Shown here in pieces: positions 49,354 through 52,325 of a stretch of DNA of 64,000 nt. The translations under genes and the position numbers were made by a program. Under the pieces are notes generated by a model, which saw only the letters and a list, made by a program, of their open reading frames with translations, did no database searches and was not told where the DNA came from. The stretch spans positions 1-64,000 of the forward strand of contig NZ_JAGRPF010000135.1 in NCBI RefSeq assembly GCF_020439865.1, given 5' to 3'. Origin of the DNA: Prosthecobacter sp. GTDB taxonomy: Bacteria; Verrucomicrobiota; Verrucomicrobiia; Verrucomicrobiales; Verrucomicrobiaceae. Numbering within the stretch: position 1 is the stretch's first letter; the number at the start of each line of letters is the position of its first letter.

Positions 49354-49368
49354 ATGGAGGAACCCGAA

Positions 49369-49599
49369 ATGGCCACACGCTCACCAGTGCCGTCAACCCA
49401 TCACCTCTCGCCGGGGATGATGACAAGTGAGACTGATGCGTGGCCGGTCTTCAAGCTGGACGTGGTGTGCCATCTGTCGCTGCCGCCGGAGGACCAGGAC
49501 ACTGCTGGCAAATTCAGCAACTGGTATGGCGATCGGCAGTACCTCGCGCTCGCCAACTGCACGCTCAAGGCTCGTCCTCTTCTTTCTGTCACTCCATGA
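49369..49599 (+). CDS. Small protein of unknown function coupled to the receiver-phosphatase gene
   Basis: 76 residues from the ATG at 49369, which has a rare good Shine-Dalgarno sequence (GGAGGA at 49356-49361). Alternative in-frame starts are the ATGs at 49354 and 49417. The stop overlaps the ATG of the next gene (ATGA at 49596-49599), strong evidence that it is translated. The N-terminal 20 residues are Ser/Thr/Pro-rich; the rest (AWPVFKLDVVCHLSLPPEDQ, FSNWYGDRQYLALANCTLK) contains two cysteines and looks like a small alpha/beta fold. I recognise no family. By position it could be a substrate, inhibitor or switch partner for the SpoIIE-type phosphatase (inference). Confidence 0.55.
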   Translation: MATRSPVPSTHHLSPGMMTSETDAWPVFKLDVVCHLSLPPEDQDTAGKFSNWYGDRQYLALANCTLKARPLLSVTP

Positions 49600-50984
49600 C
49601 TACGACCATGATCACTCCACCTCCAGGCACGAGCATTCTCATCGTCGAAGACAGCCCCACACAAGCGTTGAAACTCGCCCATGTGCTTGAGACAAACGGC
49701 CACCGAGTCACCACCGCACGCAACGGTCGTGAAGCGCTGACCATGCTCACCACGCAGATGCCGACACTCGTCATCACCGACATCAACATGCCGGAGATGG
49801 ACGGTTACGAACTCTGCCGCCGCATCAAGGACGACAGGCGACTGGGAGACCTGCCCGTCATACTTCTGACAGCGCTCTCTGATCCGAAGGACATTCTGCG
49901 TGGACTCGAATGCGGCGCGGACAACTTCATCGTCAAACCCTACGAGGAGGAGTTCCTGCTCTCGCGCATCCAGTACGTGCTCGCCAATCTCGAACTGCGC
50001 CACGCCTCGCAAGGGAAGCCGGTGACGGAGATCATCTTCGCCGGCCGCAAATACCAGCTTCACACCGGGCGCATCCACTCCATCGACCTGCTGCTCTCCA
50101 CGTATGAGACCGCCGTGCAGAAGAACCTCGAGCTGAGCAAGGCGAAGGAAAAGCTGGAGGAGCAGGCCGAGCAGTTGCGCGAGAAGAACGCCGAGATGGC
50201 GGCGGATCTCGAGATGGCGCGCGAGCTCCAGGCCGCGATTGTTCCGCGGCATTACCCGATGTTCCCTTCCCATGTGTCGCCGGAACGGAGCGCTCTTCAG
50301 TTTTGCCATCGCTACACCACCACGACCGAACTCGGCGGAGACTTCTTCGACATCCGCCCGCTTTCCGACACGCAGGCCGGCGTGCTGGTGTGCGATGTCA
50401 TGGGACATGGCGTGCGCGCCGCCCTCGTTGCCTCCATCCTGCGCGGCCTGACGGAGGAACTGACACCGATCGCCGAAGAACCCGGGCAGTTTTTCACGGA
50501 AATCAACCGCAGTCTCTGTGCCATCCTCAAACAGACCCCCACTCAGATGTTTGCCACTGCGTTTTATGCGGTCGTGGATCTTCAGAAGGGAGAGCTGCGT
50601 GTCGCAAGCGCCGGCCATCCTTCTGCGCTGCATGTGCGGCGCTCGGACAACTGCGTCGAACCCCTGATGGCCGAGGGGGATGAAGGCCCCGCACTCGGCA
50701 TTTTCGACACGGCGACTTATCAGACGTTCCGCCGCCCGACGTGTGCACGAGACATGGTGATGCTCTTCACCGACGGCCTCTACGAGGTCGAGCACACGGA
50801 CGGGAGCATTTTCGACAAAGAAGGTCTGCGCACCATCGTGGCCGGACTCTCAGAACAACCCACGCCACAGCTTTTCGACGAAATGCTTGTCAGGATCAAG
50901 CAGACCTCCGCCAGCGGGGACTTCGATGATGACATGTGCGTAGTGGCCGTGGATGTCGTGCGGCTGCTGCCTGAGACAACTTGA
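49596..50984 (+). CDS. Response regulator with SpoIIE-type PP2C phosphatase output (RsbU/RssB-like)
   Basis: 462 residues. Residues about 12-130 are a receiver: ILIVEDSPTQ, phospho-acceptor D62 in VITDINMPEMDG, and K114 in FIVKPYEE. A coiled-coil linker (NLELSKAKEKLEEQAEQLREK) follows. Residues about 210-460 are a PP2C phosphatase of the SpoIIE/RsbU class: ELQAAIVPR, GGDFFDI with the metal aspartate D249, VCDVMGHGVRAALVAS, ASAGHPSALH, LFTDGLYEVEH and GDFDDDMCVVAVD. Such proteins dephosphorylate STAS-type antagonists in partner-switching systems; no STAS or anti-sigma gene is adjacent. The start overlaps the small upstream gene, and the receiver-MBL gene begins three bases after the stop. Confidence 0.93.
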   Translation: MTTTMITPPPGTSILIVEDSPTQALKLAHVLETNGHRVTTARNGREALTMLTTQMPTLVITDINMPEMDGYELCRRIKDDRRLGDLPVILLTALSDPKDILRGLECGADNFIVKPYEEEFLLSRIQYVLANLELRHASQGKPVTEIIFAGRKYQLHTGRIHSIDLLLSTYETAVQKNLELSKAKEKLEEQAEQLREKNAEMAADLEMARELQAAIVPRHYPMFPSHVSPERSALQFCHRYTTTTELGGDFFDIRPLSDTQAGVLVCDVMGHGVRAALVASILRGLTEELTPIAEEPGQFFTEINRSLCAILKQTPTQMFATAFYAVVDLQKGELRVASAGHPSALHVRRSDNCVEPLMAEGDEGPALGIFDTATYQTFRRPTCARDMVMLFTDGLYEVEHTDGSIFDKEGLRTIVAGLSEQPTPQLFDEMLVRIKQTSASGDFDDDMCVVAVDVVRLLPETT

Positions 50985-50987
50985 TCC

Positions 50988-52325
50988 ATGAACCCGCCCG
51001 TCACCTCCCGCAAACTGCGCATCCTCCTCGCCGAGGATGTCAACGTCATCGCCATGAGCATGGCACACGCGCTGGAAAGAGCCGGTTATGAAGTGCGAGT
51101 GGCCCACGATGGTGAGGAGTGTCTTCGCATGGCCCTGGACGACGTTCCGGACCTGCTGCTGCTCGACATCATGATGCCCAAACTCGACGGCATCGAAGTA
51201 CTCAAGCAGCTGCGACAGGATGAGCGGACGCGCAACCTCGCCGTCGTGGTCTGCAGTGCCAAAGACTTCAAAACCGAGCGTGATGTGGCCGCCCAGCTCG
51301 GTGCGGCGGGCTACTTCATCAAATCCTCTGACCCAGATGCACTCGTCACGAAAGTGGCGGACGTGTTCAGTCCGCCCGCGCAGACAGCGACCGCCTCCGA
51401 CCAACCGGGTGGCCAGGTTTGGGTTCCCATGCTCAAGACCGGCCGCGCTCATTTCAAGCTCTGGGGCACCCGCGGCTCCACGCCGACTCTAGGCGGACGC
51501 TTCCAGCGCCACGGTGGCAACACCTCGTGCATGTCCTTCCACATCGGTGACGATCTGATCGTCTTCGACGCAGGCAGCGGCATCAGGGATCTGGGCATCG
51601 AGATCATGGGAAGCAAAGCACGGCGGATTCATCTCTTCATCACCCACACGCACTGGGACCACATTCAGGGCTTTCCCTTTTTCATCCCCGCCTATGTGCC
51701 CGGCTATGAGCTGGTGATCTATGGTTCCAAGGGGTTCGGCAAAAACTTGGAAGACATCTTTCGCGGTCAGCTCGACCGAGACTACTTCCCCGTGCAGATG
51801 GAGGACATGCACGGCAATCTCCAGTTTCGCCTGCTGCCAGACGGCCCGGTCAATATAGGTGACGCCCAGGTGACCTGGGAGTTCGCGCACCACCCGCTGC
51901 CCACGGTCGGCTACAAAGTCAAAGCGGAAGGGCGGACTCTGGTGTGGATGCCCGACGATGAGTTTCTGCAAGGTTACACCGGCACGCCTCATGAACTCAC
52001 ACGAGATCACGGTCTGGTTCGTCAGTTCGACAAAATCATTGAGTTCGTCTCCGGCGCGGATGTGCTCATCCACGAAGCGCAGTACACGGCCGAGGAATAT
52101 CCGAAGAAAATCGGCTGGGGCCACAGCTCCGTGCCAAATGCCGCCGTGCTCATGAAGCTGGCCGGCATTCGCCGCTGGATCGTGACCCATCACGACCCTA
52201 TGCACGACGACGCCTTCCTTGAGACCAAGCTCAACCTCACGCGACAGATTCTCGCCGAAATCGGACACCCTGACATTGCCGTCACCCACGGTTACGACGG
52301 CATGACAGAGTATCTGACGCGCTGA
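50988..52325 (+). CDS. Receiver domain fused to a metallo-beta-lactamase-fold hydrolase
   Basis: 445 residues. The receiver (about 10-125) has LLAEDVNVIAMS, D60 in LLLLDIMMPKLDG and K112 in YFIKSSD. The second part (about 153-445) is an MBL-fold enzyme of the RNase Z/PhnP-like type: FKLWGTRGSTPTLGG, RHGGNTSCMSF, VFDAGSGIRDLG, the zinc motif HTHWDH at 220-225, AHHPLPTVGYKV, WMPDDE, LIHEAQYT, HSSVPNA and WIVTHHDPMHDD. Typical activities are phosphodiester hydrolysis, including of cyclic or signalling nucleotides. Phosphorylation would switch the hydrolase, an unusual output. It is in one operon with the receiver-phosphatase gene and convergent with a NarL-type regulator. Confidence 0.9.
   Translation: MNPPVTSRKLRILLAEDVNVIAMSMAHALERAGYEVRVAHDGEECLRMALDDVPDLLLLDIMMPKLDGIEVLKQLRQDERTRNLAVVVCSAKDFKTERDVAAQLGAAGYFIKSSDPDALVTKVADVFSPPAQTATASDQPGGQVWVPMLKTGRAHFKLWGTRGSTPTLGGRFQRHGGNTSCMSFHIGDDLIVFDAGSGIRDLGIEIMGSKARRIHLFITHTHWDHIQGFPFFIPAYVPGYELVIYGSKGFGKNLEDIFRGQLDRDYFPVQMEDMHGNLQFRLLPDGPVNIGDAQVTWEFAHHPLPTVGYKVKAEGRTLVWMPDDEFLQGYTGTPHELTRDHGLVRQFDKIIEFVSGADVLIHEAQYTAEEYPKKIGWGHSSVPNAAVLMKLAGIRRWIVTHHDPMHDDAFLETKLNLTRQILAEIGHPDIAVTHGYDGMTEYLTR

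Follow-up and report, generated by a model that had tools for sequence, protein, structure and literature searches.

A receiver-metallo-beta-lactamase response regulator of Prosthecobacter as a candidate phosphorelay-gated cyclic nucleotide phosphodiesterase

We analysed a 64,000-nucleotide stretch of DNA from Prosthecobacter sp. (assembly GCF_020439865.1, contig NZ_JAGRPF010000135.1, positions 1 to 64,000), hereafter the window, and in it a run of three open reading frames (ORFs). In order, these encode a small protein, a response regulator with a receiver and a SpoIIE-type phosphatase domain (REC-SpoIIE), and a response regulator in which a receiver is joined to a metallo-beta-lactamase domain (REC-MBL). 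We propose, with modest confidence, that REC-MBL is a phosphodiesterase for 3',5'-cyclic mononucleotides (cNMPs), most likely cyclic AMP (cAMP) or cyclic GMP (cGMP), and that it is gated by a phosphorelay. REC-MBL is conserved, occurring at E<=1e-80 in 36 of 288 genomes of the order. The closest named relatives of its gene belong to Verrucomicrobiota, for example Chthoniobacter flavus. The genome that carries the window measures 6.17 Mb in 242 contigs.

Domains, residues and fold of REC-MBL

Using Pfam, we found that REC-MBL matches Response_reg (E = 1.9e-23; 83.2 bits against a cut-off of 30.2) and Lactamase_B_2 (E = 1.3e-13; 51.4 bits against 27). The receiver has an intact set of the residues that define a response regulator, namely E16/D17, D60, S90 and K112. 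The second domain contains THTHWDH at H220-H225, and with the PF12706 match this agrees with the description of atypical class II phosphodiesterases, whose metal motif is given as [T/S]HxHxDH in the excerpted text of PMC9293780. Across 85 domains of the subfamily the metal ligands H220, H222, D224, H225, H302 and D323 were identical in all 85 and H401 in 84, while H379, E325 and D408 were likewise invariant. The MBL domain is the catalytic domain of the protein, and no class I phosphodiesterase catalytic family was among its Pfam matches.

When the AlphaFold model of REC-MBL (pLDDT 83.5, pTM 0.65) was compared with solved structures, its MBL domain was closest to B. subtilis YhfI (Z score 24.8, root-mean-square deviation 2.7 over 233 residues, 21% identity). 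Other matches were E. coli RNase Z (Z score 24.7), a PhnP-family diphosphatase (22.3), an arylsulfatase (22.3), PhnP (22.0, 20% identity), a GMP-bound Brucella protein (21.8) and yeast PDE1 (21.2). A preliminary description of the locus had placed the domain in the RNase Z/PhnP type, and both the sequence and the fold matches agree with an RNase Z/YhfI/PhnP type. No PhnP family was among the NCBIfam matches listed for REC-MBL.

This likeness raises the possibility that REC-MBL is a phosphorylation-controlled, RNase Z-like ribonuclease acting on tRNA or other RNA. RNase Z proteins were indeed the best sequence matches of the MBL domain among solved structures (E = 8.8e-12; 1.1e-17 with a profile), and a GHSS region with the general-acid histidine H379 is common to both. 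However, the stretch from the third-histidine region to the final part of the domain is about 30 residues shorter in REC-MBL than in E. coli RNase Z, and profile positions 164 to 199 (35 positions) face residues 154 to 219 (65 residues) of the RNase Z chain. In RNase Z this stretch holds the tRNA-binding arm, and no such arm was found in the profile alignment of the MBL domain. REC-MBL scored 79.1 bits against the curated RNase Z family TIGR02651, whose cut-off is 292.95, and falls outside it. In addition, the cyclase and cNMP-receptor neighbours of the subfamily, described below, do not fit a ribonuclease, and we consider this role decidedly unlikely.

PhnP, the PhnP-family diphosphatase and the arylsulfatase are nearly as good fold matches as YhfI, as might be expected if REC-MBL were a hydrolase, PhnP-like or not, of some other small phosphodiester or ester, with its receiver tuning a metabolic enzyme. 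In part of one genus, a Gfo/Idh oxidoreductase gene and an amidohydrolase gene also recur one gene away from REC-MBL (clusters 2 and 3). Beyond that genus, however, no metabolic gene recurs in the loci examined, whereas cyclases and kinases do, and we regard a metabolic role as improbable.

A phage origin of the MBL domain, or kinship with Apyc1, was considered and set aside; only two weak matches were found in 50,697 phage records, with a PHROG score of 36 bits. Apyc1 had no entry among the structure matches listed for the MBL model, which by itself excludes nothing.

Cyclases, cNMP receptors and kinases beside the MBL subfamily

The proposal that REC-MBL acts on cNMPs draws mainly on the neighbours of related genes. 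We built a profile from 15 MBL domains and searched 288 genomes of the phylum at E<=1e-40, which gave 62 matches in 58 genomes. We found that all 58 encode a class III cyclase (PF00211), compared with 69 of the 230 genomes that lack the subfamily (127 of 288 overall; Fisher p = 1.9e-25, with no correction for kinship). For 32 of the 62 matches we found such a cyclase no more than 5 kb away, where 0.42 would be expected, and in 26 of those 32 the MBL gene is directly downstream of the cyclase on the same strand (11 families). Thirty-three of the genomes have only one cyclase, and in 23 of them it is the one that neighbours the MBL gene. No MBL match has any of the weakest cyclase matches, or any of those of genome G382, within 5 kb.

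Genes for cNMP receptors are found at the same loci. A cNMP-binding neighbour stands beside a cyclase-linked MBL gene at six loci (L197, L231-L234 and L238; one neighbour survey, of 40 loci, had no MBL row for L232, which the 86-locus survey includes). At a fully scanned, operon-like locus (L224:1933-6550), a CHASE2-adenylate/guanylate cyclase gene is followed by the MBL gene and then by the gene of an MscS-type channel that bears a cNMP-binding domain, and L234 carries the same channel. Outside chromosomes, a plasmid-borne MBL gene of Ensifer overlaps an adenylate/guanylate cyclase gene, and one of Mesorhizobium comes after the gene of a cNMP-binding protein. The rhizobial DUF3095 neighbour was counted as cyclase-like on the label of a Mesorhizobium record; the S. 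meliloti ORF served as its own seed, and its match is not independent. In a metagenome-assembled genome named Candidatus Sulfopaludibacter, a single protein (L044:4998-7178) is composed of MBL-REC-cNMP_binding-GGDEF, joining domains of the cNMP and cyclic di-GMP (c-di-GMP) types. The window's genome itself has five PF00211 and seven PF00027 matches, which indicates that makers and receivers of cNMPs exist there.

Two side observations concern the same loci. The runs at L224, L234 and L231, which are from the window's phylum, are candidates for a complete cNMP circuit. Separately, MBL subfamily genes directly adjoin an HDOD-domain gene at L167:4068-5879 and L203:4106-5875, in Magnetococcus and a genome of the phylum sample.

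The preliminary description had suggested that REC-MBL could break down a nucleotide second messenger, naming cyclic dinucleotides and oligonucleotides as substrates to test. Breakdown of a second messenger is the best-supported function; the choice of substrate fared less well. A GGDEF domain is present in the relative at L044, as such a substrate would allow. However, it is class III cyclases and proteins with cNMP-binding domains that neighbour the subfamily, and these point to cyclic mononucleotides. In the text excerpted from PMC9293780, the related Rv1339, of the same group as YhfI, hydrolyses cAMP and cGMP and is inactive on c-di-AMP and c-di-GMP, and the excerpt of PMC9117128 has YhfI preferring cAMP/cGMP. 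Cyclic dinucleotides and oligonucleotides are, in our view, very improbable substrates of REC-MBL.

We then consider input to the receiver. A survey of receiver-MBL fusions and their neighbours found a histidine kinase within 400 bases of the receiver-fused gene in 15 of 32 loci other than the window. The kinases scanned are hybrids of PAS or HAMP, HisKA, HATPase and REC domains, and two of the three (L121 and L129, with L038, of Chthoniobacter flavus, the exception) also have an Hpt domain. The kinase gene is upstream on the same strand in L121, L122, L038 and L041 and convergent in others. In further relatives (L045 and L048) the REC and MBL parts are separate adjoining genes. Together, the kinase neighbours and the split genes support phosphorelay input to the MBL enzyme. 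Among the closest kin of the window gene (L118-L120, L039 and L040) no adjacent kinase was found.

In the mechanism we envisage, D60 receives phosphate from a histidine kinase, which in relatives is a hybrid HisKA protein that has a receiver and often Hpt as well, and this transfer may raise or lower the activity of the MBL domain. The output would be a class II-like phosphodiesterase (MBL-fold, two-metal) for cyclic mononucleotides, and its altered activity would set the level of a cNMP that is produced by class III cyclases encoded at other sites in the genome.

Several observations weigh against this proposal. The DxE and D408 signature of the subfamily is not seen in our RNase Z alignments, and the chemistry may differ from that of the solved enzymes. 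The genomes searched are related to one another and the counts of co-occurrence and neighbourhood are not independent. None of the 17 high-scoring matches (bits >= 250), the window included, has a cyclase within 5 kb, and in our tree the cyclase-linked MBL genes form a clade separate from the receiver-fused genes; the substrate could therefore have shifted after the receiver was gained. Finally, REC-MBL is present in 35 of 68 genomes of the family and absent from the other 33 (E<=1e-60), and three genus-mates that lack it still have cyclases.

The tree was made by a quick method that leaves many forks open, with a midpoint root for drawing only and with fragments L050 and L051 left out. On the receiver side of that root, two small side branches (L166, and L165 with L168) also have cyclase or cNMP neighbours, which makes a common substrate plausible, not certain. 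The 'CYCnear' labels of L165, L192, L193 and L214 were set by hand, for neighbours up to three genes away or a DUF3095 gene.

A wider proposal follows, which we put forward tentatively and hold somewhat short of even confidence. REC-MBL proteins may be a new class of response regulator, bacterial phosphorelay-gated cNMP phosphodiesterases equivalent to RegA on an MBL fold. The wider subfamily may be the missing 'off' enzyme of a circuit of CHASE2-cyclase, phosphodiesterase and cNMP-gated MscS-like channel in Verrucomicrobiota and beyond, to which a receiver was joined more than once.

The three-gene locus of the window

Features of the locus and its surroundings in the window
Feature	Position	Strand	Basis
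ORF of 1078 aa, probably a membrane protein	45286..48522	-	no Pfam match
Lysine-rich SWIB/MDM2-domain protein	48681..48992	-	PF02201, 4.2e-28
Shine-Dalgarno-like GGAGG	49356..49360	+	sequence; 8 nt before ATG at 49369
Small orphan ORF, 76 aa (81 aa from 49354)	49369..49599	+	codon score, best of six frames; ATGA overlap with next gene; no relatives
REC-SpoIIE (PP2C-type phosphatase) response regulator, 462 aa	49596..50984	+	Pfam, motifs, orthologs in G064 and G065
REC-MBL response regulator, 445 aa, candidate cyclic-nucleotide phosphodiesterase gated by phosphorylation	50988..52325	+	Pfam, orthologs, structure model
Receiver domain of REC-MBL, residues 12-123	51021..51356	+	Pfam, motifs
MBL phosphodiesterase-type domain of REC-MBL	51438..52316	+	conservation over 85 domains; fold match to YhfI, RNase Z, PhnP
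LuxR/NarL-type response regulator, neighbour outside the proposed system	52338..53015	-	Pfam
Soluble PAS-HisKA_3-HATPase kinase, neighbour	52982..54049	-	Pfam; overlaps gene of likely partner regulator

The sequence and the ORF list confirm the coordinates and order of the three genes as first described. The stop of the small ORF and the start of REC-SpoIIE overlap by four bases (ATGA, 49596-49599), and three bases separate REC-SpoIIE from REC-MBL. No Shine-Dalgarno-like sequence is evident upstream of either regulator gene, which makes translational coupling likely. An uninformative promoter scan gave 0 promoter-like sites, and terminator-like sites were at chance level.

The small ORF can be read as 81 codons (49354-49599), but the start at 49369, with GGAGG upstream, is the better one. 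At 0.047 its codon score sits between those of the two reference sets; 14 of 163 pieces of real genes score no higher, and 4 of 116 spurious ORFs score no lower. It had no match in Pfam, NCBIfam, PHROGs or the plasmid collection and nothing above noise in 68 genomes of the family (best E = 0.031), and when folded alone it gave a poor model (pLDDT 61). Judged by its sequence it is probably a coding orphan, a plausible gene but an unproven one.

The overlap, the short gap and the likely coupling would suit a single module in which one phosphorelay governs both the phosphatase and the hydrolase and the small protein serves as a substrate or a regulator. However, in G064 and G065, the two other genomes that have both regulators, the two genes are on separate contigs and lie over 10 kb away from any contig end. 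A SpoIIE domain lies within 400 bases of an MBL subfamily gene in 0 of 86 other loci (several with short flanks), and the small ORF has no relatives. We consider a single module unlikely. REC-SpoIIE beside REC-MBL was not found elsewhere in the family, the order or the named genomes, and among the genomes searched the three-gene arrangement is private to that of the window. The preliminary description had presented the three genes as a signalling operon; as a conserved unit this is not supported, and the lack of co-occurrence is the outcome that it had named as a refutation. In the window's genome, one transcription unit with REC-SpoIIE might let a single stimulus act on cNMP breakdown and on a partner switch at once; this is a weak step of the mechanism we propose.

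The soluble PAS kinase does lie convergent next door, as had been noted, yet it is probably not the source of input. Its gene overlaps that of the LuxR-type regulator, the likelier partner, and elsewhere REC-MBL adjoins hybrid HisKA kinases. We set it aside as the cognate kinase.

REC-SpoIIE matches Response_reg (1.8e-28) and SpoIIE (1.1e-43) in Pfam. Its receiver residues are complete (E18/D19, D62, T92 and K114), and the acidic motifs of PP2C are also present. Orthologs occur at E<=1e-80 in 3 of 288 genomes of the order, and those of G064 and G065 are 66-67% identical. In these two genomes the gene adjoins CheA (Hpt, HATPase, CheW, REC), CheR, CheW, a YfiR-like protein and a methyl-accepting chemotaxis protein (MCP) whose sensor is of the CHASE8 type, with CheB in addition in G064, and there REC-SpoIIE seems to serve as a chemosensory output. 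A chemosensory cluster at L159:1109-11837 (CheR, CheW, REC-SpoIIE, CheA-REC, CHASE8-MCP and YfiR-like) has the SpoIIE phosphatase as its apparent output. The CheA-type kinase of the G065 cluster had no match at E<=1e-20 in the window's genome, in a search that had no positive control. REC-SpoIIE resembles the RssB-type REC-PP2C regulators of Pseudomonas in having a receiver, a helical linker and a PP2C domain. It differs from them in score, reaching 117.4 bits against the NCBIfam family RR_RssB_Pseudo, far under the cut-off of 700, and falls outside that family.

Relation to known systems

That two-component systems control the breakdown of c-di-GMP is well established. For cAMP or cGMP, the only breakdown under phosphorelay control known to us is that of amoebae, through RegA, whose catalytic domain is of the HD type. 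Within the open-licence literature searched, neither a receiver-MBL phosphodiesterase nor this operon is named in a title or in the opening of an abstract. If our proposal is correct, REC-MBL would join kinase signalling and cNMP signalling directly in bacteria, and the cyclase-phosphodiesterase-cNMP-channel operon would offer a circuit open to assay in a phylum whose signalling has seen little biochemistry. Enzyme assays would be worthwhile both for the receiver-MBL proteins and for the sister branch linked to cyclases.

The atypical class II phosphodiesterases Rv1339, YhfI and C. glutamicum CpdA share with REC-MBL the PF12706 domain and the [T/S]HxHxDH motif. In contrast to REC-MBL, no receiver is reported for them in the excerpted text, and even YhfI, the closest fold, has the low identity over aligned residues given above. 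As excerpted from PMC9117128, the anti-Pycsar protein Apyc1 is an MBL-fold cNMP phosphodiesterase related to YhfI, as we propose for REC-MBL; it differs in being a single-domain enzyme of phage or bacteria. GbpA and GbpB of Dictyostelium, compared here by description only (excerpt of PMC11988041), resemble the relative at L044 in joining an MBL phosphodiesterase to cNMP-binding domains, whereas REC-MBL has a receiver and lacks a cNMP-binding domain.

The closest parallel in design is RegA of Dictyostelium, described in the same excerpt as a receiver fused to a cAMP phosphodiesterase that is activated by phosphotransfer (PMC11988041). Like RegA, REC-MBL would place a receiver, driven by hybrid kinases, in control of a cAMP phosphodiesterase. 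The two differ in that the catalytic domain of RegA is of class I (PMC11988041), whereas that of REC-MBL has the MBL fold and a predicted substrate.

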